From assembly GCA_012522955.1 (NCBI GenBank), contig JAAYJK010000075.1, forward strand, positions 1 to 62,516: 62,516 nt of DNA, in the 5' to 3' direction. Of this stretch, positions 4,752 to 35,383 are shown piece after piece; the stretch's first letter is position 1, and every line of letters starts with the position of its first letter. The DNA comes from Syntrophomonadaceae bacterium (GTDB lineage: Bacteria > Bacillota > Syntrophomonadia > Syntrophomonadales > Syntrophomonadaceae). Under the pieces are notes generated by a model. The model searched no databases, had not been told where the DNA came from, and saw only the letters and a list, made by a program, of their open reading frames with translations. Made by a program: the position numbers and the translations under genes.

Positions 4752-5597
4752 ATGAAAAATGAGCTGATAAGTGTGGAGACCGAGGATGGGATTGTTCTGC
4801 ATGGAGCTCTATATGAAGCCCCGGCAGCTAAAGAAACGGCAGTTATCATGCAGCATGGAGCAGCCATGAACTTCTATACCGGCATGGGACGGTTTCTGCC
4901 CGCCATTCTGGTTCAGGGAGGCTATAGCTGCTTTAGTGCCAACAACCGGGGACATGATTTCGGTACCGCACCGGATAATGATAAAAAACCGGTTATTGGA
5001 TTAATGCGGGATACCTTTAAGGAGTGTGTAAAGGACGCCCGGGCTTTAATTGCTTTAATGAAAGGGCGGGGCTATCAGCGCCTAGTCTTGCTAGGACACA
5101 GCCAGGCTATACCCAAGATAGTATATGCCCAGAACCTGGCTCAGTTTCCTGAAGTAGCGGGATTAATACTGATCAGTTCTCCCCCCTCGGTAACCCAGAT
5201 GATGAGATATCTGGCTACCGAAGATTTTTATGAACGGGGATTGTTTAAGGCCCGAGAATTAAGTGAACTGGGGATGGGGGATCAGTTGATTGTATTGAAG
5301 GGCCGAGGAACTATGCCTTGGATTTTTACTGCCCGAACCTTCCTGGACTTTTATGGTCCTGGAACCCCAGCGGATACGGAAGAATTAGTGCGGCAAGTAT
5401 ATTGTCCCATACTGTTAACCCGAGGGAGCCAGGATTTTCCCCCGGTTACCCGAGAACTCCTACAAAGGATTAAGATCAATTCTGCTCATCCGGATAAGAC
5501 CCAGGTAGTTGAAATAGCAGGAGCAGATCATTTTTATATTGGCTATGAGGATGAACTGGGGGAGAAGATTCTGGACTGGTTAAATGGGATGGTTTAG
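4752..5597 (+). CDS. Alpha/beta-hydrolase family protein
   Basis: A 281-residue alpha/beta-hydrolase, probably a cytoplasmic esterase or acyl-hydrolase. The oxyanion-side motif MQHGAAMN is near residue 35. The nucleophile elbow is LLGHSQA with Ser117, so the usual final Gly of GxSxG is Ala. The candidate acid is Asp in TRGSQDF and the catalytic His is in AGADHFY near the C-terminus. The N-terminal strand ISVETEDGIVLHGALYE is typical. The start has GGAGAAGGG just upstream. It lies 100 bp after the small hypothetical gene and may share its transcript. Substrate unknown. Confidence 0.8.
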   Translation: MKNELISVETEDGIVLHGALYEAPAAKETAVIMQHGAAMNFYTGMGRFLPAILVQGGYSCFSANNRGHDFGTAPDNDKKPVIGLMRDTFKECVKDARALIALMKGRGYQRLVLLGHSQAIPKIVYAQNLAQFPEVAGLILISSPPSVTQMMRYLATEDFYERGLFKARELSELGMGDQLIVLKGRGTMPWIFTARTFLDFYGPGTPADTEELVRQVYCPILLTRGSQDFPPVTRELLQRIKINSAHPDKTQVVEIAGADHFYIGYEDELGEKILDWLNGMV

Positions 5598-5694
5598 CAT
5601 ACCCTCCTAGCGATTGGAGCAATATTGATCTGAGCCTAAGCAAAAATAAATTGTGGTTCTGTACAGCAGGGCCAGTGAAGCTATAAAAAATTAT

Positions 5695-5728
5695 AAAATG
5701 TCTTTGGCAATATTGCCAAAGACATTTT
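5695..5728. promoter_or_regulatory. 34-bp perfect palindrome; candidate sigma-54 enhancer site 1 (or terminator)
   Basis: A perfect palindrome with the core CTTTGGC-AATATT-GCCAAAG (5702-5721). The same CTTTGGC-N6-GCCAAAG dyad recurs at 5778-5797. Both lie upstream of the -24/-12 element at 5860, with centres about 150 and 73 bp away, the usual distance for bacterial enhancer-binding-protein sites. The longer first copy ends in a run of T and could also terminate transcription from the hydrolase gene. The two roles are compatible. Confidence 0.6.
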
Positions 5729-5777
5729 TTTGTGCCAGCAGGGCTGATTCTGGAACCAAGCTCTTTCTTTCCCGGGG

Positions 5778-5797
5778 CTTTGGCGGTTTTGCCAAAG
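5778..5797. promoter_or_regulatory. Candidate sigma-54 enhancer site 2
   Basis: CTTTGGC-GGTTTT-GCCAAAG, with the same arms and the same 6-bp spacing as the centre of the palindrome at 5695-5728 but with no T-tract behind it. This argues that the arms are conserved as a protein-binding site and not as a terminator. The natural candidate to bind is the activator encoded at 11107-12504 at the end of this gene cluster. Confidence 0.6.
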
Positions 5798-5859
5798 ACT
5801 TGCCATCAAGATAAGAGGCGAAAAGGCTAAAAACCATGAACTATGATGCTTTTAAGCTC

Positions 5860-5875
5860 TGGCATAGAATTTGCT
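5860..5875 (+). promoter_or_regulatory. Sigma-54 (-24/-12) promoter of beta-oxidation cluster 1
   Basis: TGGCATAGAATTTGCT fits TGGCAYR-N4-TTGCW at every defined position, with GG and GC ten bases apart. The predicted transcript would start near 5886, run through the hbd relic, and reach crotonase at 6031. Two identical dyads lie upstream and a sigma-54 activator gene lies downstream in the cluster. Confidence 0.75.
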
Positions 5876-5945
5876 ACTCATATTGTGAAGGAAATAGTAA
5901 AGGGGGGAGAAAAGGGCTGGTTATATCAGCCAATGTGATGTGGTT

Positions 5946-6017
5946 TTGAAGTCCAAGTGTCGAGCCGGGCATCTGGGAATGAAAACCGGAAAAGGTTTTT
6001 ACGATTATACCAAATAA
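5946..6017 (+). pseudogene. 3' remnant of a 3-hydroxybutyryl-CoA dehydrogenase gene
   Basis: In one frame this reads [20 protein letters not shown] followed by YTK and a stop. The C-terminus of the intact enzyme at 47673-48527 reads [20 protein letters not shown] then YNK and a stop. Homology fades upstream of LK, and no start or Rossmann motif is present, so this is the tail of a deleted hbd copy. Its stop is 13 bases before crotonase. This mirrors the intact hbd-crotonase order in cluster 3. The sigma-54 promoter at 5860 probably once served the full gene. Confidence 0.8.
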
Positions 6018-6030
6018 AAGGGAGGTTTAT

Positions 6031-6810
6031 ATGGAATTTGCAACCCTTCTATTTACCAAAGAAGACGGACTGGGCATTATCACCTTAAATCGCCCCCGAG
6101 CCCTCAATGGTCTAAATGATGTACTCTTAGGGGAATTGTCCCATTTAATGGATCTCATTGCCAGTGATGAGGAGATAAAGGGAGTTATTCTGACTGGAGG
6201 GAGCAAGGTGTTTGCTGCTGGTGGAGATATAGCCTATATTGCTTCCCTGGATGCAGTAAGCGCGGAAGGCTTTGTGGCTTTAGCCCAAGAGGTGGTGGAT
6301 AAAATTGATAGGCTGGAGAAGCCGGTTATCGCTGCCATTAACGGGCTAGCTCTGGGCGGGGGCTGTGAATTGGCCCTGGCTGCAGATATCCGACTGGCAG
6401 CAGAAGGTGCGGTATTCGGTTTGCCGGAAATAAACCTAGGCATCATCCCTGGGGCCGGAGGTACACAGCGCTTGAGCAGGATTGTGGGTCCAGGCTGGGC
6501 TAAATACCTGATTTACACCGGTGATAACATAGATGGGGATTTGGCTCTGAAAATTGGATTAATAAATGGCTTGTTCCCCCGGGAACAACTTATGGAAGAA
6601 GCCCGGAAACTGGCTAAGAAGTTGGCAGCCAAGGCTCCGTTAGCTTTGAGATCTGCCAAGAAGTGTATTAATTATGGGACTGGGGTGGATTTGGCTTCGG
6701 GCCTGCAGTATGAGCAAAAGACCTGGGCTTTGCTCTTTGCCACCCAGGATCAGAAAGAGGGCTTTAATGCCTTTTTAGAAAAGAGAAAAGCAAAATTTAT
6801 TGGACGTTAG
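6031..6810 (+). CDS. Enoyl-CoA hydratase (crotonase)
   Basis: A 259-residue crotonase expected to hydrate crotonyl-CoA to 3-hydroxybutyryl-CoA. The oxyanion and substrate segments GGSKVFAAGGDI and NGLALGGGCELALAADIR are present. Both catalytic glutamates are retained: the Glu of GGGCE and the Glu of LPEINLGIIPGAGGTQRL. The start has AAGGGAGG about 5 bases upstream. It is the first intact gene behind the sigma-54 promoter at 5860 and is followed after 38 bp by acyl-CoA dehydrogenase. It is a paralogue of the crotonase at 46839-47624. Confidence 0.92.
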   Translation: MEFATLLFTKEDGLGIITLNRPRALNGLNDVLLGELSHLMDLIASDEEIKGVILTGGSKVFAAGGDIAYIASLDAVSAEGFVALAQEVVDKIDRLEKPVIAAINGLALGGGCELALAADIRLAAEGAVFGLPEINLGIIPGAGGTQRLSRIVGPGWAKYLIYTGDNIDGDLALKIGLINGLFPREQLMEEARKLAKKLAAKAPLALRSAKKCINYGTGVDLASGLQYEQKTWALLFATQDQKEGFNAFLEKRKAKFIGR

Positions 6811-6848: not shown

Positions 6849-7988
6849 ATGGATTTTAGATTGACTGAAGAACAAGAGATGATTCGGAAAATGGCCCGTG
6901 ATTTTGCTGATAACGAGGTATTGCCTAATTGTCAACAATGGGATGAAGAACATATTTTTCCCTGGGATACGGTTAAAAAACTTCAGGAACTGGGATTGAT
7001 GACCTGCGGAGTGCCGGCAGAATATGGTGGACCTGGGATCGATCATTTGGGACAATGTATTATATCAGAGGAAATAAGTCGTGGTGATGGAGGACTAGCT
7101 ACTACTATGGCGGCCAGCACTTTATTGGGGCCGGATCCGGTGTATATTGCTGCTACGGATGAACAAAAGAAGTGGTGGTACGGACAGATGATGGAAGGTG
7201 CCATAACTGCTTTTTGCCTTACTGAACCGGGGGCCGGTTCTGATGCAGCAGGCTTGTCCACTCGATGTGTAAGAGACGGAGATGATTATATACTGAATGG
7301 AACCAAGCAATTCATTAGTAATGGAGGAGTGGCTGGGCTATACACGGTTTTTGCAACTATGGATAAAAAACTGGGGCACAAGGGTATGTGCAGTTTTATG
7401 GTGGATCGCAATACTCCGGGGATAAGTGTGAGCAACCCCGAGAACAAAATGGGCATAAGAAGCTCTAATACTACCCAGGTAATCTTCGAAGATGTTCGGG
7501 TACCGGCCCGCAATCTCTTGGGCAAGGAAGGAGATGGATTTAAGATAGCCATGAAGACTCTGGACATATCCCGGGCTGTGGTAGCAGCTATGGCAGTGGG
7601 AATAGCCCAGGGAGCCTTCGAGTGTGCCGTGCAATATGCCAAGGAAAGACAGCAATTTGGCAAACCCATTGCCAGTTTTCAGGCTATCCAGTTTATCCTG
7701 GCCGAAATGTCGGTTATGGTGGAAACCGCCCGTCTCTTGTACCAGAAGGCCGCCAACAATCAGGATATGGGTCTGCCCTATACCCGTGAAGCCTCCCTGG
7801 CTAAATACTGGGCCGGTGAGGCAGCTATGAAGGTGAGCTTAAATGCGGTACAGGTACATGGTGGTTATGGATATACCAAGGAATACATGGTAGAAAAATA
7901 CATGCGGGATGCCAAGATATTCCAGATATTTGAAGGGACTGCAGAGGTACAGCGCCTGGTAATCGCTGGCGACGTACTTCGGGGTTAA
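6849..7988 (+). CDS. Short-chain acyl-CoA dehydrogenase (butyryl-CoA dehydrogenase type)
   Basis: A 379-residue FAD enzyme, the usual length for the family, expected to oxidise butyryl-CoA to crotonyl-CoA and pass electrons to an electron-transfer flavoprotein not encoded in this window. Signatures: FCLTEPGAGSDAAGLSTR (about residues 124-141) and the C-terminal IFEGTAEVQRLVIAGDVLRG with catalytic base Glu362. The start has AAAGGAGGAG upstream. It follows crotonase in the same operon. In syntrophs this step needs reverse electron transfer; nothing in this stretch shows how that is done here. Confidence 0.92.
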   Translation: MDFRLTEEQEMIRKMARDFADNEVLPNCQQWDEEHIFPWDTVKKLQELGLMTCGVPAEYGGPGIDHLGQCIISEEISRGDGGLATTMAASTLLGPDPVYIAATDEQKKWWYGQMMEGAITAFCLTEPGAGSDAAGLSTRCVRDGDDYILNGTKQFISNGGVAGLYTVFATMDKKLGHKGMCSFMVDRNTPGISVSNPENKMGIRSSNTTQVIFEDVRVPARNLLGKEGDGFKIAMKTLDISRAVVAAMAVGIAQGAFECAVQYAKERQQFGKPIASFQAIQFILAEMSVMVETARLLYQKAANNQDMGLPYTREASLAKYWAGEAAMKVSLNAVQVHGGYGYTKEYMVEKYMRDAKIFQIFEGTAEVQRLVIAGDVLRG

Positions 7989-8149: not shown

Positions 8150-9496
8150 ATGTTTAATAGCGAGTATAAAGAAAAATTTCGTACCCCGGAGGAGGCAGTT
8201 AAGGTAGTCAAGTCTGGAGACTGGGTAGATTATATGTATTTTAATGGCTACCCCAAGGCTCTGGATAAGGCCCTAGCCCAAAGGAAAGATGAACTATATG
8301 GAGTTCATATCCGCAGTGGTATTTCTTTACCTCCATTTCCCGAGGTACCGGTGAGTGATCCAACTATGGAGCATTTCCAGTGGGACAGCTGGCACTATAG
8401 CGCATGGGATGCCAAATTGGCCGACCAGGGGATCTGCAGTTTCTCTCCATTGCTCTACCACGAAGTGCCTGGTTATTACCGTAATCGGGAGGTGGAAGTG
8501 GATGTGGCTATGCTCCGGGTATGTCCTATGGATAAATACGGCTATTTCAACCTGGGCATAAATGCCTCTCATTGTGAAGCAGTAGTTGAGAATGCTAAAA
8601 TAGCCATTGTGGAAGAAAACGAATCCATGCCTTACGTATATGGGGGCAATGGACACCAGCTACATATATCAGAGATAGATTATATCGTGCGGGGGGAAAA
8701 TGAGCCCATGGCCAATGCCGCAGTGCTGGAGGCTACTGAGGCGGAAAAGAGAATAGCTGATCACATAATGGAAGACATTCATGATGGATGCTGCATTCAA
8801 TTGGGAATTGGGGGACTGCCCAATTACCTGGGCAAGCAGATAGCTGCCGCCGGATTAAAAGATTTGAGTGCACATACGGAAATGATGGCTGATGCCTATG
8901 TGGAAATGTGGAAAAATGGCTGTATTACCGGGAAGAAAAAAGAAATTGACCGCAAACGAATAGTCTGTACCTTTGCTCTAGGCTCTCCTGAACTATATGA
9001 ATTTATGGATCGGAATCCCATGATTGCTTCTTATTCAGTGGACTACACCAATGATCCAAGCGTAATTGCCAGGATTTCCAATGTAATATCCATAAATGGC
9101 TGCTTGGAAGTAGACTTCTATGGACAGGTTGCTTCCGAAATGCAGGGTCCTCGACAGATTACCGGCACTGGTGGGCAATGGGATTTTGTGTTGGGGGCCT
9201 ATCATTCTCCGGGGGGCAAGAGCTTTTTATGCACTTCATCTACCTATAAGGATAGAGAAGGCCGGCTGCAATCAAAAATTAAACCCCTGTTGACTCCAGG
9301 AGCCGCCTGCACGGTTTCCCGGCAGCTTACCCACTATGTTGTAACCGAGTACGGTAAAGCTTTGCTCAAGTGCCAGTCTATTTGGGTACGGGCCGAGCGC
9401 TTGATTGAGATTGCTCATCCGGAATTTCGGGATGAACTGATTAAGGAAGCTGATAAGATGGGATTCTGGAAGAGAAGCAACAAGATTGAACCCTAA
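8150..9496 (+). CDS. Acetyl-CoA hydrolase/transferase family CoA-transferase, paralogue 1
   Basis: A 448-residue enzyme of the 4-hydroxybutyrate/butyryl-CoA:acetate CoA-transferase family. It most likely activates butyrate or a related acid with acetyl-CoA. The catalytic glutamate that forms the glutamyl-CoA thioester is Glu244 in [10 protein letters not shown]. Glycine-rich oxyanion segments [11 protein letters not shown] and [13 protein letters not shown] are present. The start has GAGGAGGA upstream. It is followed by a full-length paralogue. In a butyrate oxidiser this is the expected activation step; the exact acid substrate cannot be read from sequence. Confidence 0.85.
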
Positions 9497-9661: not shown

Positions 9662-11014
9662 GTGAGTTATGGGCAGGAATACCGTAGTAAATTAGTAAGG
9701 GCCGACCAAGCGGTGGAGGTTATTAAGTCGGGAGATTGGATTGACTATGGATCCATGAACGGTCAGGTGCTTAGTCTGGATAAGGCTCTAGCGGCCAGAA
9801 AAGAAGAACTAGAAGATATCAAGGTATGGAACCTTTTAAATAGTTTTCCGGCTCATATACTGGAAGTTGATCCCGCGGGGGAGGTCTTTACCTGGAATAG
9901 CTGGCATCTTTCCGGGCTGGACCGCAATCTAATGAAAAGTGGACGGCCAGTGTTTTATTCCTCTATCCGTTATTCTGAATTGCCTCGCTATGTAAGAGAG
10001 CATATTGAGCCTCTGGACGTAGCCATGATGCAGGTAGCCCCTATGGATCAGCATGGATTTTTCAATTTTGGCCCCCAGAGTTCCCATAGCCGAGCGGTCT
10101 GTGAACGAGCCCGGGTGGTTATAGTAGAAGTAAATCAGAATATGCCCCGTTGCCTGGGGGGATATGAAGAAGCAGTACATATTTCGGAAGTGGATTATAT
10201 TGTAGAAGGAGAGAATCCGCCCTTAGCCCAGCTGCCGGATACTGTATTCACCCTAGTGGACGAGAAAGCAGCCCAATATATTATAGAGGAAATGCAAGAC
10301 CAATGCTGTATACAGTTGGGAATCGGGGGAATGCCCAATGCGGTAGGGAAATTGATCGCTAACTCGGACTTGAAGGACCTGGGCTGCCACACGGAAATGT
10401 TGGTGGATGCCTATGTAGATATGTTCGAGGCAGGTCGGCTGACCAATGCTAAGAAGAATATTGATCCTGGCAAACTGGTATATACTTTTGCCGTGGGATC
10501 CCAAAAACTTTACGATTTTATTGATAATAACCCGCGCTGTGCCATGTATCCCGTCAATTATACCAATAATCCCAATTTGGCAGCCTTGAATGACAATCTG
10601 GTCAGTATTAATAATGCCATAGAAATCGATCTGTACGGGCAGGTGTGTGCGGAATCAGTGGGAACTCGGATAATCAGCGGTACTGGCGGGCAGCTGGATT
10701 TTGTCCTGGCCGGTTACCAATCCAAAGGAGGCAAATCCTTTGTCTGTTTGCCCTCCTGCAATATGGATAGCCAAGGGAATATAGACAGCAGAATAGTGCC
10801 GGTGTTAAAATCCGGAGCCATAGTCACTGATCCCCGCTCGGTGGCCCAATATATAGTGACTGAATACGGGAAACTGGACATGAAAGGCAAATCCGTTTGG
10901 CAAAGAGCGGAAGGCCTGATCAACCTGGCCCATCCTCAAGTCAGAGATGAATTGGTGAAGAAGGCTCAAGAACAGGGTATCTGGAGAAAGAGCAACCGCC
11001 ATCCCCTTTTATGA
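9662..11014 (+). CDS. Acetyl-CoA hydrolase/transferase family CoA-transferase, paralogue 2
   Basis: A 450-residue paralogue of the preceding CoA-transferase with the same architecture. Catalytic Glu245 lies in CHTEMLVDAY, and the [11 protein letters not shown] and GTGGQLDFVLAGY motifs are kept. Substrate-side segments differ: NGQVLSLDKAL here against [11 protein letters not shown] there, and GPQSSHSRAV against [10 protein letters not shown]. Different acid specificity is therefore plausible. The start is GTG with AGGAGGAG 6 bases upstream. The 165-bp gap before it contains only a weak -24/-12-like sequence at 9591. Confidence 0.85.
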   Translation: MSYGQEYRSKLVRADQAVEVIKSGDWIDYGSMNGQVLSLDKALAARKEELEDIKVWNLLNSFPAHILEVDPAGEVFTWNSWHLSGLDRNLMKSGRPVFYSSIRYSELPRYVREHIEPLDVAMMQVAPMDQHGFFNFGPQSSHSRAVCERARVVIVEVNQNMPRCLGGYEEAVHISEVDYIVEGENPPLAQLPDTVFTLVDEKAAQYIIEEMQDQCCIQLGIGGMPNAVGKLIANSDLKDLGCHTEMLVDAYVDMFEAGRLTNAKKNIDPGKLVYTFAVGSQKLYDFIDNNPRCAMYPVNYTNNPNLAALNDNLVSINNAIEIDLYGQVCAESVGTRIISGTGGQLDFVLAGYQSKGGKSFVCLPSCNMDSQGNIDSRIVPVLKSGAIVTDPRSVAQYIVTEYGKLDMKGKSVWQRAEGLINLAHPQVRDELVKKAQEQGIWRKSNRHPLL

Positions 11015-11106
11015 TATAATTTTCTTAATATAATAGAATATCCCAGTTAAAAGTACGGTCAGATGTAAACGCATTTTAATTCGTGGTTTTTAAAATGGGG
11101 GAAGCC

Positions 11107-12504
11107 ATGGAAAATTTCATGCTGTGGGGGGAGCAGAAATTGGAAATTGGACGGATACTGGAAGCTTTATTTACTGAAAACCAGTTTATGGCGGCTATGA
11201 TTGTGGACGATAAGGGGAGGATTGTCTCCATTAGTGAAACTTATTTGAAGGTATTGAATCTAAGCCGGGAAGAGGTGATTGGCCGACCGGCCAAGGAAAT
11301 TACCCCGCATACCCGGGTTATGAACGTGCTCAAAAACGGAAAAGCCGTAGTTGGTTATAATTGGCGAATTAATGACCATAATATGATAGCCTCCACCATA
11401 CCTATTATCCAGGAAGGCATGGTGGTAGGCGCTTTTGCCTACAGTGTATTTATGGATATTTGGAATGCCCAGGATACCATTGAGAATTTGATCACTGAGA
11501 TAAATATGTATAAAGACGAAGTGGATAATCTGTACAAGGCTAAGTACAGCTTTGACGATATTATTGGCAAGAATGAAGCCTTCCGCAAGGTCAAGAAATT
11601 TGCCCGTCAGGTGGCCCAGCATACTATTAGCACTGTACTCCTGTGCGGGGAAAGCGGTACTGGCAAAGAGCTCTTTGCCCAGGCCATTCATAATCAATCC
11701 AGCCGCAGCCGTTTTCCCTTTCTAAGGATTAATTGTGCTGCCATACCGGAAAATCTGTTGGAAGCAGAATTGTTCGGTTATGAAGAGGGAGCTTTTACGG
11801 GGGCCAAAAAGGGAGGCAAACCGGGTAAATTCGAATTGGCCAATGGGGGTACTATATTCCTGGATGAGATCGGCGAGATGACTTTGACCATGCAGAGCAA
11901 ATTGCTGGTTGCTCTGCAGGAACAGGAAATAGAGCGTCTGGGAGGCAGGCATCCGATCAAGGTTAATGTAAGGGTAATAGCAGCCAGTAACAAAAATCTG
12001 GAGAATATGATTGAAAGCGGTATATTTAGAGAGGATCTTTATTACCGGCTGAATGTGGTGCGCTTGGATCTGCCGCCCTTGAGAAAAAGAGCGGACGATA
12101 TTCCTTTGTTATGTCAGCATATTATCACCCACTTAAACTGCCGCCTCCATACTGGAACTAAAAAAATCTCCAGCTCCGCCCTGGAGATGCTGAGCACTTA
12201 TGCCTGGCCGGGCAATGTACGCGAGTTGGAAAATGTGCTGGAAAGGGCCATGATCCTGGCTGATATGGAAAAGACCCAGGTCCTGGATGAGCGGCATTTT
12301 ATGTTTATAAAAAAACAGTTGGATCTTTGCCGGGCCGCCCATGACCAGCAAAACCTGAAAAATGCAGTCCGGGAATTTGAGCGGGATCTGATTGAAAAGG
12401 CCTTGCAGGATGCAGATTATGACCGAGTAAAAGCTGCCGAACTGCTAGGAATAGATCTTTCCACCCTCTACCGTAAGCTGAAAAAATACGGCTACTCAGC
12501 TTAA
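11107..12504 (+). CDS. Sigma-54-dependent transcriptional activator with PAS domain (cluster 1)
   Basis: A bacterial enhancer-binding protein of about 465 residues. One PAS-type sensor domain occupies roughly residues 10-125 and is followed by a short coiled coil. The AAA+ domain has Walker A GESGTGKE, the sigma-54 contact loop GAFTGAKK and Walker [14 protein letters not shown] Fis-type helix-turn-helix ends the protein ([20 protein letters not shown]). ATG at 11107 is preferred because GGGGGA precedes it; GTG 11083 and ATG 11095 are in frame but lack a site. It lies directly after the CoA-transferases, making it the likely activator of the promoter at 5860 through the CTTTGGC-N6-GCCAAAG dyads. 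The ligand is unknown. Confidence 0.88.
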
Positions 12505-29208: not shown

Positions 29209-31302
29209 ATGCGGATTAGAGTCAGTGAGTTGATGAACTCCAGCTTACTTTTCTTGCAATACGGACAAAGTGTGGCAGAAGCTGCCCGGCTTTTTGTGGA
29301 AAATGACAATATTTCTGCTCTGCCCGTTCTAGATGATAATCATCAACTGCTGGGGTTTTTAAGCAAAAAGCAATTGCTGGTTGCCCTGGCTGGGGGACTA
29401 TCTTCCCAGGATGGAATAGGCAGCCTGATTAACCGGCAATTCAACAGCATTTCTATCCAGGAGTTCTTGCCACTTATACTGGAAGACAAATTTGAATATA
29501 TGCCGGTTGTAAATGGAGATGAATTGGTGGGCATGCTCTACTATGAGGAAGTGTATCATGCTATCTCCGAACGACTATACGCCAAACATCTGGATATGGA
29601 AGCAAGTATTGATGCGGTATATAATCCGGTTATTTCAATAGATAATGACTACCAAATAGAGATATTTAATAGAGCAGCGGCTAAGCTAATGGGCATGTGG
29701 GCCCAGGCAGTTAGGGGTTCCGATGCCCGGGAAATACTCTGTGATACTGGAGTTTTGGAGCCGTTGCTTAGCGGCTCCCATGCTCCTTTGCCAGCCAATA
29801 AACTACTAATAGGGGGAAGAAGCTTTCTGCCCTATCGTACTGATATTATCAGGGATGAGCGGACTATTGGAGCCATACTGGTTTTACGGGAGATATCAGA
29901 GTTTGAAGAACTGGCCAAAGAATCCGAGTATACCAAAAAGCTTAACCGGGAGCTGGATGCCATAATAGAGTCTTCTTTTGATGGCTTATATGTTACCGAT
30001 GGACAGGCCAATACCCTAATGCTTAACCAGGGCTTTGAACGTATTACCGGGGTCATGGGATATGAGTGTATCGGTCGCAATATGGCGGACCTGGTCAAGG
30101 ACGGTATCTTTTCCCGTTCCGGCACCCTCTTGGCCCTGGAGAAAAGGAAGCGAGTTACTATAACCATTGTTCCCCGCAGCGGCAAGGAAGTTTTAATTAC
30201 CAGCAACCCCATCTTCGATGAACAGGACAATATTATTATGGTGGTCACCAATGTGCGCGATATTACGGAATTAAATGAATTGCAGCGGCGTCTGCAGCAG
30301 GTAGAGGGCTTGCGGCAGCTGTACAAAAGTGAATTACAGCAGCTTAAAATGCAGAATTCTCAGAAAATGGTGGTAAAATCAAGCAAAATGAAGGAATTGC
30401 TGAATCTGGTTACCAGAGTGGCGGGAGTAGACTCCACGGTTCTGATTCAGGGTGAGTCAGGGGTAGGAAAAGAGCTGATAGCGGAAATTATTCATCAGAG
30501 CAGTAAACGGAGGGAAGGCCCTTTTATAAAAGTTAACTGTGGTGCCATTCCTGAAAATCTGCTGGAATCGGAGCTCTTTGGCTATGAAGAAGGAGCTTTT
30601 ACCGGAGCCAGGAAAAGTGGGAAAATCGGCCTGTTTGAACTGGCTAATAATGGCATTCTGTTCCTGGATGAGATAGGGGAACTGCCTTTGGGCTTGCAGG
30701 TGAAACTCTTGCGGGTACTGCAAAACAAGGAGATAAGTAGGGTAGGTGGAAGTAAATCCTTTAAAGTGGATACCCGCATTATGGCTGGAACTAACCAGGA
30801 TTTGATGGAAATGATTAACCAGCAAAAATTCCGATTGGATTTATATTATCGCTTAAATGTTATTCCTATAACAGTGCCCCCCTTAAGGGAAAGGATGGAA
30901 GACACACCGGTATTGGCCAATCACTTTTTGGAAATCTTCAATCAGAAGTACGGAATGAACAAACGTTTTCACAAAAATGTAATAGATTGCTTTATGGAAT
31001 ACCATTGGCCGGGAAATGTGCGGGAATTGCAAAATCTTACCGAACGTTTGATGGTAACCAGCAATGATCGCATTATCAAAACCGCCGATCTGCCTGGGGC
31101 TATAAATAGGCTTTGGTTAAAAAACGATCCCGACCATGGCTTATGCTCATTGCGCCAGACAGTGGAAAATGCGGAGCGACAGCTGCTAGAAAAAGCCTTT
31201 AAACGCTACAAGACTACCTATCAAATTGCTCAAGCCCTGGGGATAAACCAGTCGACGGTGGTTAGAAAAGCGGCCAAATATGGGATTAAAACCCGAAATT
31301 AA
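29209..31302 (+). CDS. Sigma-54 activator with CBS pair and two PAS domains (cluster 2)
   Basis: 697 residues. Two CBS domains (about residues 1-125; VSELMNSSLLFLQYGQSVAE and LPLILEDKFEYMPVVNGDEL) suggest binding of an adenosine nucleotide or derivative. Two PAS domains follow (about 130-235 and 250-355), then a short coiled coil. The AAA+ domain has [16 protein letters not shown] and GILFLDEIGEL. The Fis-type HTH at the end is TYQIAQALGINQSTVVRKA. The start has AAAGGGG upstream. It faces the acyl-CoA dehydrogenase-thiolase operon and is the obvious candidate to act at the promoter 34940-34955. The CBS input may report energy charge or CoA-adenylate state; this is inference. Confidence 0.9.
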   Translation: MRIRVSELMNSSLLFLQYGQSVAEAARLFVENDNISALPVLDDNHQLLGFLSKKQLLVALAGGLSSQDGIGSLINRQFNSISIQEFLPLILEDKFEYMPVVNGDELVGMLYYEEVYHAISERLYAKHLDMEASIDAVYNPVISIDNDYQIEIFNRAAAKLMGMWAQAVRGSDAREILCDTGVLEPLLSGSHAPLPANKLLIGGRSFLPYRTDIIRDERTIGAILVLREISEFEELAKESEYTKKLNRELDAIIESSFDGLYVTDGQANTLMLNQGFERITGVMGYECIGRNMADLVKDGIFSRSGTLLALEKRKRVTITIVPRSGKEVLITSNPIFDEQDNIIMVVTNVRDITELNELQRRLQQVEGLRQLYKSELQQLKMQNSQKMVVKSSKMKELLNLVTRVAGVDSTVLIQGESGVGKELIAEIIHQSSKRREGPFIKVNCGAIPENLLESELFGYEEGAFTGARKSGKIGLFELANNGILFLDEIGELPLGLQVKLLRVLQNKEISRVGGSKSFKVDTRIMAGTNQDLMEMINQQKFRLDLYYRLNVIPITVPPLRERMEDTPVLANHFLEIFNQKYGMNKRFHKNVIDCFMEYHWPGNVRELQNLTERLMVTSNDRIIKTADLPGAINRLWLKNDPDHGLCSLRQTVENAERQLLEKAFKRYKTTYQIAQALGINQSTVVRKAAKYGIKTRN

Positions 31303-31468: not shown

Positions 31469-33301
31469 TTACATAAAAGCATCTTCCTGTATATCGATGG
31501 CACTTCTATCCCCGGCCTTCATGGCCTTATGATATCCTAAGATTTCAGGAACATGGTTCATAATATAGAACCTGGCGGTGGCGATTTTACCCTTATAGAA
31601 AGTTGCATCGAAGTGGTCTTCGCCCAGTTCGGCCAGCTTCTTGGCCGCCAATAAGGCCTGAGAGAGCATGAGCTTGCCGCAGTAGACTCTGGCCCCTGCA
31701 TGCATGGTGCGAGTAGTGAAGAGTTGTTTCATCTGCCTATCTCCTTTGGTCCAGGCATCATTCATTTCAACAATCTCTTTGAAAGCACTCATGCACTCTG
31801 CCATCATGTCAAATTCAGCTGCGAATTGCTCAGTCCTCTGACCGGAGATGAAGTCGTCGATTTCAGCCACCCACTTTTTGAATGGTTCGCCGCCCTTCAT
31901 GGTGAACTTTCTGCCGGTATAGTCCTGGGCCTGGATAAAGTTGGTGCCTTCCCAGATGCCATAGATCACTACGTCCCGGTATAGTTCAGCTCCGGCATAC
32001 TCTTCCATGAAGCCGTAGCCGCCGTGACACTGTATGGCTTCACCGGTGGTAATTCTGGCCATGTCGGAGGTGTACGCCTTGCACAAGGGGTTATTGATCA
32101 TGAACATGTCATGATAGTATTCTCTTTCTTCCGGTGTAGGAGCGTCTTTGGATAGGTCCACATAGAGATAGGATTGGTAAATCAAGGCCCGGGTGGCTTC
32201 CAAGACGGATTTCTGTAACAATAGCATGCGGCGGACGTCTTCGTGCTCAATGATCCGGACGCTGGGGCCCTTGGGATTGGTGGAATGCCTGCTCTGAACC
32301 CGTACTTTCGTGTAATCCAAAGCGGCATAGTATGCTGAGCCCATGCAACCCAGGGCAAATAAGCCGGTGTTCAGACGCTCTTCGTTCATAAAGGTGAACA
32401 TCTGGGACATACCTATGCCGCGGCCGTCTACCACTTCTACTTCACCTAGCATCCAGCCGTAACAATTGTCGTTTTCGCCCATGGCCAGGGTTAGGGTCGA
32501 AGAACCATGAATACCCATCTTGTGCTCAATACCCACGGAGGTTACGTCGTTCCATGCGCCCAGGGAACCATCATCATTGACCCAGAATTTGGGCACTATA
32601 AACAGAGATATACCGGCGGTACCTGCTTTGGATCCCGGAGTTTTGGCCAACATTAAGTGGATAATGTTTTCCGCCAAGTCATGGTCACCGGAGGTGATAA
32701 AGCATTTAGTCCCTTTCATCTTATAGATGTGGGGTTTATCGGTGGGGGTGGCCCGGCTTTGAAGGGCGCCTACGTCAGATCCTGCACCGGGTTCGGTCAG
32801 GCCCATGGTGCCGCACCATTCACCACTATACATCTTGGGAAGGAACAATTCCTTTTGCTTTTCGGTGCCATATTCCTGGAACACGGTGGTAGCACCCTGA
32901 GTCAGACACCAGAACATGACTATGGACGGGGAGGCAGCGGATTGCATTTCCAGAATGGGAGAGTACCAGGCCAGGGGTATCTTGCCTTCGCCCCGGAATC
33001 CAAACTGGGGCCCTAACTCGGCATCCATAATGGTTTTGTAGACAGTCTTGAAAGATTCAGGAGTTACCACGGCATGTTCCTCGCCGCCCACAAAGGTAGC
33101 GCCGGGGTCATCGGCATCTTTGTTGGCCGGGCACATAACGTCACGACATACTTTAAAGTTAAGGTCCAGGAAATTATCCACGTCATCGATGGCGTAGTAA
33201 TCTTTGTAAGCATCCAGGGATAATAGAGTGTCCATGTCCAGCCATTCTTTAATCTGGAACTTAATGTCCCTCATCTGATACAACCAATTATAATGTGCCA
33301 T
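31469..33301 (-). CDS. Large acyl-CoA dehydrogenase with C-terminal extension
   Basis: 610 residues, about 200 longer than classical acyl-CoA dehydrogenases. The core has GTMGLTEPGAGSDVGALQSR (about 163-182), CHGGYGFMEEYAGAELYRDV and the catalytic IWEGTNFIQAQDYTGRK (Glu retained). The remaining 130 residues form the helical C-terminal domain of the branch that includes 3-methylmercaptopropionyl-CoA dehydrogenase (DmdC). The true substrate is unknown and could be a short- or branched-chain acyl-CoA. The start has GGAGGAG 7 bases upstream. It lies 142 bp after thiolase and is likely co-transcribed from the sigma-54 promoter at 34940. Confidence 0.88.
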   Translation of the reverse strand: MAHYNWLYQMRDIKFQIKEWLDMDTLLSLDAYKDYYAIDDVDNFLDLNFKVCRDVMCPANKDADDPGATFVGGEEHAVVTPESFKTVYKTIMDAELGPQFGFRGEGKIPLAWYSPILEMQSAASPSIVMFWCLTQGATTVFQEYGTEKQKELFLPKMYSGEWCGTMGLTEPGAGSDVGALQSRATPTDKPHIYKMKGTKCFITSGDHDLAENIIHLMLAKTPGSKAGTAGISLFIVPKFWVNDDGSLGAWNDVTSVGIEHKMGIHGSSTLTLAMGENDNCYGWMLGEVEVVDGRGIGMSQMFTFMNEERLNTGLFALGCMGSAYYAALDYTKVRVQSRHSTNPKGPSVRIIEHEDVRRMLLLQKSVLEATRALIYQSYLYVDLSKDAPTPEEREYYHDMFMINNPLCKAYTSDMARITTGEAIQCHGGYGFMEEYAGAELYRDVVIYGIWEGTNFIQAQDYTGRKFTMKGGEPFKKWVAEIDDFISGQRTEQFAAEFDMMAECMSAFKEIVEMNDAWTKGDRQMKQLFTTRTMHAGARVYCGKLMLSQALLAAKKLAELGEDHFDATFYKGKIATARFYIMNHVPEILGYHKAMKAGDRSAIDIQEDAFM

Positions 33302-33443: not shown

Positions 33444-34634
33444 TTAAAGCATTTCGAATACCGTAGTACAGCCCATGCCACCTCCGATACAGAGTGTAGC
33501 CAGACCAGTCTTCAGATTACGCTTTTGCATTTCATAAAGTAATGTGACAATAATCCGGGCTCCAGAACAGCCGATAGGATGGCCTAGAGCGATAGCGCCT
33601 CCATTAACATTGACTTTATCCATCTTATCAGACCAGCCACAGTCCCTAGCTACAGCTATGGATTGGGCGGCAAAGGCTTCATTGGCTTCAATCAGGTCAA
33701 TATCGTCTATGGTCATGCCCGCCTTGGCAAGGGCTTTCTTGGTGGCAGGAATGGGACCCAGGCCCATTACTGATGGATCTACTCCACCGGAGGCATAGCT
33801 GACGATTCTGGCTACCGCTTTGATTCCCAGCTCATCTGCCTTTTCTTTAGACATTACGATCATAGCTGCTGCACCATCATTTATCCCGGAGGAACTACCT
33901 GCAGTTACGGTTCCGCCTTTTTTAAAGGATGGCGCCAGCTTGGCCATCTGTTCCCGGGTTGCCATCCGGGGATGTTCATCGGTATCAAATACCTTTTCGC
34001 CTTTTTTAGTTTTAATGACAACCGGAACTATTTCATCTTTAAACTTGCCGCCTGCAATAGCTTCAGCAGTTCTAACCTGACTAACATACCCAAAATCATC
34101 CAGTTCTTCACGGGTTATGCCATATTGATCCACCACATTTTCAGCGGTAATTCCCATATGGTAGCCGTTGAAAATTTCCCACAAGCCGTCATAAACCATG
34201 CCATCTATCAGGTCCCCCTTGAACATGTTCATTCTATAACCCCAACGAGCATTAGGCAGGTAATAGGGATGAGCACTCATATTCTCCATGCCACCGGCCA
34301 GAATAATATCTGCATCCCCGGCTTTAATTATCTGAGCGGCTAGCTGGACTGACCTCATCCCAGAAGCGCATACTTTGTTAATGGTAAAAGCGGTGGTTTC
34401 CTTAGGAATTCCAGCATGTATCATCGCCTGGCGGGCTACGTTTTGGCCTTGTCCGCCCTGTAATACACAGCCAAAGATTACTTCTTCCACCTGCTCCGGC
34501 TGGATTCCGGCCCTTTTGATTGCTTCTTCCATGACAATTCTGCCCAGTTCTATGGTTTTGGTGTCTTTAAGCGTACCCCCGAAGGTTCCTATGGCTGTAC
34601 GGCACAGACCGACAACAACGACTTCTTTTGACAC
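33444..34634 (-). CDS. Acetyl-CoA acetyltransferase (thiolase)
   Basis: 396 residues, normal for a degradative or biosynthetic thiolase II. It cleaves acetoacetyl-CoA to two acetyl-CoA in this context. Nucleophile Cys89 is in [12 protein letters not shown], His is in [17 protein letters not shown] and the second Cys is in [16 protein letters not shown]. The start at GTG 34634 is chosen because GGAGAGGTGG lies 6 bases before it; longer readings to 34742 add a sequence unlike any thiolase. First gene behind the sigma-54 promoter at 34940, leaving a 5' leader of about 300 bases. Confidence 0.93.
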
Positions 34635-34939
34635 TATTGTCCACCTCTCCTTCATATAAATAATAAATACATAATCCCAAACCCCAAGTCTCAATGATGA
34701 ATAATGATTTTGAATGGCATCATCGCAGTTGATAAAAAGCATTATCCCCCCTTTAGCATTATTTAAATTAATACAAAAACTAACTACTCCCGGAGAAGTA
34801 GAAAGGCAAGACCATTAGCATTAAGTAGAACTGCGGCTCAAGCTACCATGAAGACCGTATTAGCAATCAAGCTATATACGAAATTAAATGATATGAGTAT
34901 AAAATCAGAAGTAGTTATCTCTATCTCTAAAAAGAAATA

Positions 34940-34955
34940 TGCAATATGTATGCCA
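34940..34955 (-). promoter_or_regulatory. Sigma-54 promoter of beta-oxidation cluster 2
   Basis: On the minus strand TGGCATACATATTGCA, a full match to TGGCAYR-N4-TTGCW. It faces thiolase. Three identical dyads lie 79, 102 and 181 bp upstream (centre to -24), and a CBS-PAS activator gene lies at the other end of the cluster. Confidence 0.78.
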
Positions 34956-35024
34956 AATCATGGCAATAAAAGCGGCTGTAAAAATGGGGCTTAGAGCAGC
35001 TTGCTGCTTGAAGCTAAAAAGAAT

Positions 35025-35142
35025 AATGCATGAAAGCATTAAAATAAAATGCGGAATTGCATTACCCGAAAAAATGTACTTGCTTCGACCATGCTAGATT
35101 AAATTATTACAAAAAAAGCAAGTGTAAATGCATACTTGCATT
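35025..35142 (-). promoter_or_regulatory. Three enhancer dyads AATGC-N6-GCATT
   Basis: Exact AATGC-N6-GCATT dyads at 35025-35040, 35048-35063 and 35127-35142, with different 6-base centres (ATGAAA, GGAATT, ATACTT). Conserved arms with variable centres of constant length are what a dimeric HTH activator would select. The set lies upstream of the sigma-54 promoter at 34940. The rest of the gap up to 35383 is AT-rich and shows only minor palindromes. Confidence 0.72.
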
Positions 35143-35383
35143 AATATCATCGGGTCGTATACTGTTTCTATTATAAATGATATTTGCTGGTAATAATACA
35201 GTAAATTACCAAAAAATCCTCTTTTAAGAGGAAAAAGGCAAAGGCTTTTATTTCTCTTCGATTTGAGGTACTCTGATATTACTGACTCAACTGTTGGTAA
35301 TGTGGCAGCAATGTTTACCGAATCACCCCTTTAGCTGAACCGGAAAGCAGGAGTCGTTAATTTGTATTAAGGAGCTAAATAAT

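Follow-up and report, generated by a model that had tools for sequence, protein, structure and literature searches.

The region upstream of the crotonase operon in the 62,516-nt stretch of DNA analysed here (the window), part of a 2.53-Mb Syntrophomonas-like genome (G000), most likely carries a crotonate/butyrate-responsive pair of sigma-54 enhancers, the distal member of which would be an unusual terminator/enhancer composite. We assign a probability of about 0.77 to this explanation as a whole, namely a sigma-54 operon with paired upstream activator sites (UAS), one of them built into a terminator. Comparison between genomes reveals a dyad pair conserved at nearly fixed spacing, a sigma-54 box, a linked activator and a covarying outer stem in the distal palindrome (features in Table 1).

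The sigma-54 box TGGCATAGAATTTGCT agrees with TGGCAYRNNNNTTGCW at every defined position, with the −24 GG and −12 GC elements at their fixed spacing, which bears out the full consensus fit that an earlier note on this DNA had claimed. The pattern TGGCAYRNNNNTTGCW occurs 27 times in the genome, with ~2.4 occurrences naively expected and none for the reversed-pattern control, and the genome encodes rpoN (PF04552 at C91, E = 7e-65). Two dyads with the same arms and the same 6-bp centre lie upstream of this box, their centres 149 and 73 bp from the −24 GG (~150 and 73 bp in the earlier note) and 76 bp from each other. Exact CTTTGGC-N6-GCCAAAG was found in only two places in the 2.53-Mb genome, at these two dyads of the window, compared with 0.007 expected and 0 in the control. 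The distal dyad extends to a perfect 34-bp palindrome that runs into a T7 tract, as had been described, and its RNA is predicted to fold at −20.2 kcal/mol (z = −7.75) with a 15-pair stem, a stable hairpin directly followed by a T-tract as in intrinsic terminators. The proximal dyad, which the note had described as free of a T-tract, indeed has none, and its stretch folds no better than shuffled sequences (z = −0.94). A terminator scan reported the distal hairpin for the − strand alone; on the + strand it was missed because some of the tail is taken up by A:T pairing.

Table 1. Features of the operon and its upstream region (window coordinates)
Feature	Position	Strand	Remarks
alpha/beta hydrolase gene	4752..5597	+	codirectional, upstream of the hairpin, which would terminate its transcript; ortholog in the same place in G004
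perfect 34-bp palindrome AAAATGTCTTTGGCAATATTGCCAAAGACATTTT	5695..5728		resembles a terminator hairpin, the distal UAS core forming its apex
distal dyad (UAS-1) CTTTGGCAATATTGCCAAAG	5702..5721		candidate activator site
T7 tract	5725..5731	+	3′ side of the hairpin
proximal dyad (UAS-2) CTTTGGCGGTTTTGCCAAAG	5778..5797		no T-tract
sigma-54 −24/−12 promoter TGGCATAGAATTTGCT	5860..5875	+	start expected near 5886, ~12 bp past the −12 GC (5873-5874); L110 has the same box, and relatives have conserved ones
hbd 3′-end remnant, 25 protein letters	5940..6017	+	88% identity to the intact homolog (its residues 260-284)
crotonase / short-chain enoyl-CoA hydratase	6031..6810	+	now the first gene of the operon
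acyl-CoA dehydrogenase	6849..7988	+	
butyryl-CoA:acetate CoA-transferase-like protein 1	8150..9496	+	
butyryl-CoA:acetate CoA-transferase-like protein 2	9662..11014	+	
sigma-54 enhancer-binding protein, PAS/AAA+ with GAFTGA/Fis-type HTH	11083..12504	+	start at GTG 11083 or ATG 11107

The dyad pair precedes this operon in eight genomes, with the two centres 70-79 bp apart; in all but one of them, 73-87 bp separate the proximal dyad from the GG. In G009, the exception, the distance is 208 bp, which puts the pair ~125-135 bp farther upstream of the box than in the other genomes, apparently owing to an insertion. Seven aligned upstream regions shared mostly 37-58% pairwise identity (67% for the closest pair), and the dyads and the −24/−12 element were the conserved blocks that stood out in them. 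Of 63 genomes searched in the order, 7 matched strict dyad plus sigma-54 patterns and none matched the reversed control; the matches lay six times before the hbd/crt operon (G000, G001 and G003, together with G062, G069 and S. wolfei, where the match precedes hbd) and once before an acyl-CoA dehydrogenase gene (G040). Every orthologous cluster that was read through contained the activator gene. At this operon, the dyad pair, the box and the PAS/AAA+/Fis activator recur together in at least eight Syntrophomonadaceae genomes with flanks only ~45% alike; a repeated inverted repeat upstream of the box is conserved with orthologs of the activator, as is typical of paired UAS. This conservation strongly supports a sigma-54 promoter whose paired upstream sites would be bound by the product of the linked activator gene.

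The activator itself carries PF00158, PF02954 and PAS domains by Pfam search and a GAFTGA motif read in its sequence, the features of an enhancer-binding protein, and its gene closes the cluster, as the earlier note had it. In the same genus, the operon runs in the order hbd-crt-acd-cat-cat-activator, from which the window lacks hbd, the gene for 3-hydroxybutyryl-CoA dehydrogenase; only its last 25 codons and the stop survive between promoter and crotonase, a remnant absent from the earlier account of this stretch. An ordinary 5′ leader before crotonase was considered for the interval and given up in favour of the remnant. In G003 and G001 (L005/L164 and L004/L165), the corresponding sigma-54 box is followed by an intact hbd and then crotonase, and in G004 hbd is also missing at the operon, with a shorter scrap kept. 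Five other hbd-like genes elsewhere in the window genome are only 46-54% identical to the operon hbd. Judged from these relatives, the promoter is one that originally preceded hbd, not crotonase; the earlier description of a promoter before crotonase holds only for this species and G004, as most relatives have hbd in first position.

Contact with a protein should preserve the letters themselves, and an RNA stem their pairing, so that the two constraints can be separated within the distal palindrome. Its core, TTTGGCA-N4-TGCCAAA, is kept between genomes, while the flanking bases vary yet stay complementary, the outer arms being ATGTC/GACAT in the window, CGACT/AGTCG in G003 and GAGCC/GGCTC in G029 and G009. 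We examined covariation in five hairpins that aligned without internal gaps, four from the operon sites and one from a further locus of the window genome, L119. All pairs form in this set, five of the six outer pairs have changed on both sides (none of 500 shuffles scored as high) and four of the six core pairs never vary, so that the stem is kept by compensatory change in relatives, as in a terminator, although five sequences are a small sample and relatedness can inflate covariation counts. In addition, outer complementarity at the distal dyad reached 43 of 64 compared with 26.4 in shuffled sequences (P = 0.00025); at the proximal dyad, it was not clearly above the shuffles (P = 0.09). In most genomes, the distal hairpin runs into a T-rich tail, with an interrupted tract in G029 and G009; the proximal dyad has no such tail in the window's group. 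Given the conserved core, the covarying outer arms and the usual T-tract, the distal dyad probably doubles as terminator and binding site. The earlier note had set these two against each other in favour of a binding site, and it is the opposition, not the binding site, that the comparative data speak against.

In the mechanism we propose, the two dyads would be paired UAS, with the core TTTGGCA-N4-TGCCAAA, for the PAS/AAA+/Fis activator encoded at the operon end. Activator dimers on both UAS would oligomerise and loop to sigma-54 RNA polymerase at the −24/−12 box, thereby driving the operon for butyrate/crotonate breakdown, and the PAS domain would sense a crotonate- or butyrate-related signal, such that the activator switches on its own operon. 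The distal UAS would form part of the intrinsic terminator stem that follows the preceding gene, serving as an enhancer in DNA and as a terminator hairpin in RNA. We infer that the activator binds, that transcripts end at the hairpin and that crotonate, or one of its CoA derivatives, is what induces the operon. Whether the distal enhancer is a true composite, in which binding of the activator and termination could influence one another (a bound activator might act as a roadblock, or read-through might clear the enhancer), is a more tentative proposition that we hold at slightly less than even odds.

The dyads and the sigma-54 promoter could be real and the distal hairpin a mere DNA palindrome without a role in termination, its longer arms perhaps extending the protein site or reflecting local duplication. 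Long perfect palindromes without clear T-tracts do lie upstream of other sigma-54 boxes (36 bp at L130 and 44 bp at L131), and in the S. wolfei group the T-tracts are weak, with a distal dyad that lacks one and long arms on the proximal dyad instead. However, outer arms that vary in sequence but stay complementary are not expected from protein contact, and the T-rich tails, present after the distal site in most genomes, are missing from the proximal one in the window's group, so we regard this explanation as rather unlikely. The reverse simplification would make the distal dyad a plain terminator for the hydrolase gene and the proximal dyad its decayed copy, with no activator bound at either. 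It draws on the strong hairpin and T7 tract at the right place, but does not account for a proximal dyad that lacks a T-tract and is retained at almost constant spacing across eight genomes. Moreover, the core persists although the upstream neighbour changes, from the hydrolase gene shared by the window and G004 to a gene for an iron-sulphur membrane protein in G003 and G001. We rejected the first dyad as a terminator only, on the conservation of the second, and consider this explanation highly improbable.

The dyads might instead be used by a paralogous sigma-54 activator. The genome encodes ~19 full-length activators, and paralogs at 51-55% identity adjoin acyl-CoA dehydrogenase genes whose sigma-54 boxes carry TGGCA-N4-TGCCA dyads, for which reason the dyad core appears to be a motif of the activator subfamily. 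The linked activator, however, is the one that tracks the operon across genomes, which makes use of the dyads by a paralog in its place quite improbable. Least of all do we expect a vegetative sigma-A promoter upstream of 6031 to drive the operon with the sigma-54 box idle, as a sigma-70-type scan of 5500-6100 returned no site on the + strand, the −24/−12 box is conserved across genomes and nothing emerged in favour of such a promoter. We therefore retain the paired sigma-54 enhancers under the linked activator. The observations in the earlier note hold at every point, and its interpretation was mostly right and is partly supported here; to it we add that the distal site is probably composite and that a scrap of hbd survives.

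Other sigma-54 boxes of the genome offer related arrangements. L119 (G000:C1 near 9794, − strand) has a sigma-54 box before CoA-transferase-like genes, with the hairpin AAGACATTTTGGCATTATTGCTAAAATGTCTT at −167, and is likely a second target of the same motif. At L136 (G000:C107 near 100021), three TGCAATATTGCA cores lie upstream of a sigma-54 box, two of them with extended complementary arms. Similar overlaps of enhancer and terminator may exist at other Syntrophomonas sigma-54 promoters, with L119 and L136 as examples. Paired identical dyads with perfect arms were found in two cases among 88 sigma-54 boxes, the one before the crotonase operon and L136, and in none of the Markov controls, too few to establish enhancers inside terminators as a general rule. 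The window also contains a second perfect sigma-54 box at 34940-34955 (− strand), before a thiolase gene (33444-34742, −) and an acyl-CoA dehydrogenase gene (31469-33301, −). Three dyads of a different type, AATGC-N6-GCATT, lie beside it at 34956-35160, and a large sigma-54 activator gene is located nearby (29209-31302, +).

Among known systems, CrbR of Clostridium resembles the window in its predicted enhancer-binding-protein control of a crotonase/hbd operon with a sigma-54 promoter and several UAS (Nie et al. 2019, PMC6615313). By contrast, the CrbR UAS is TGT-N10-12-ACA, whereas the dyads before the crotonase operon have the form TTTGGCA-N4-TGCCAAA; dyad 1 has TGT and ACA at a distance of 20 bp, and neither is present in dyad 2. 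Operon content differs as well, the window operon having CoA-transferases and an activator at its end, as does the lineage, and the text of the CrbR paper mentions neither Syntrophomonas nor terminators. Since CrbR is predicted to act through TGT-N10-12-ACA sites, the window system, compared by UAS motif, is parallel to CrbR rather than an established member of its group. AdhR of Clostridium beijerinckii, likewise an HTH activator with several UAS upstream of a sigma-54 promoter, has had its UAS binding established by UAS mutation and gel shift, an experimental template for work on multiple UAS, but differs in its GAF rather than PAS sensor domain, its three UAS and its alcohol dehydrogenase targets (PMC7017808); the portion of that paper's text searched does not mention a terminator. 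A sequence recognised as DNA that also forms intrinsic terminator hairpins is known from the uptake-signal terminators of Neisseria and Pasteurellaceae, although the uptake-signal word is genome-wide with hundreds of copies (PMC1852404), whereas the window holds the putative enhancer of an activator at one operon. Titles and abstracts, which give weak evidence of absence, held no precedent for enhancers inside terminators other than these uptake-signal terminators.

A cultured counterpart is provided by S. wolfei. The operon at L147 encodes the peptides of Swol_0435 (LVEVIPGAETSEAVSSAIVELCKK) and Swol_0436 (SKIVPTLKPGAIVTDPR) published in PMC9676460, by which genome G025 was matched to S. wolfei. 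This operon is orthologous to that of the window and shares its dyad pair, its sigma-54 box and its linked activator (L147 11249-12640), but differs from it in keeping a shortened hbd, in lacking crt and acd at this place and in carrying the long arms on the proximal dyad. Swol_0435 (L147 8863-9486) is a C-terminally shortened hbd of 207 codons, though reported among the most abundant proteins on crotonate. Swol_0435 and Swol_0436 were prominent spots unique to crotonate-grown cells (PMC3582634), and Swol_0435 reached 0.026 NSAF on crotonate alone compared with 0.002 and 0.006 in co-cultures (PMC4324140); one study, however, describes Swol_0436 as relatively stable between butyrate and crotonate growth (PMC9676460), which counts against a crotonate response. 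The consulted parts of these three papers contain no regulatory mechanism for the Swol_0435-0436 operon.

Little is known of how the many paralogous beta-oxidation genes of syntrophic butyrate oxidisers are regulated. The present analysis yields a candidate activator, a defined putative binding motif and a cultured test case in the Swol_0435-0436 operon of S. wolfei. It also provides a clear example of how sequence comparison can separate a protein-binding core from an RNA stem within one palindrome, and cautions that a site scored as a terminator may double as an enhancer.
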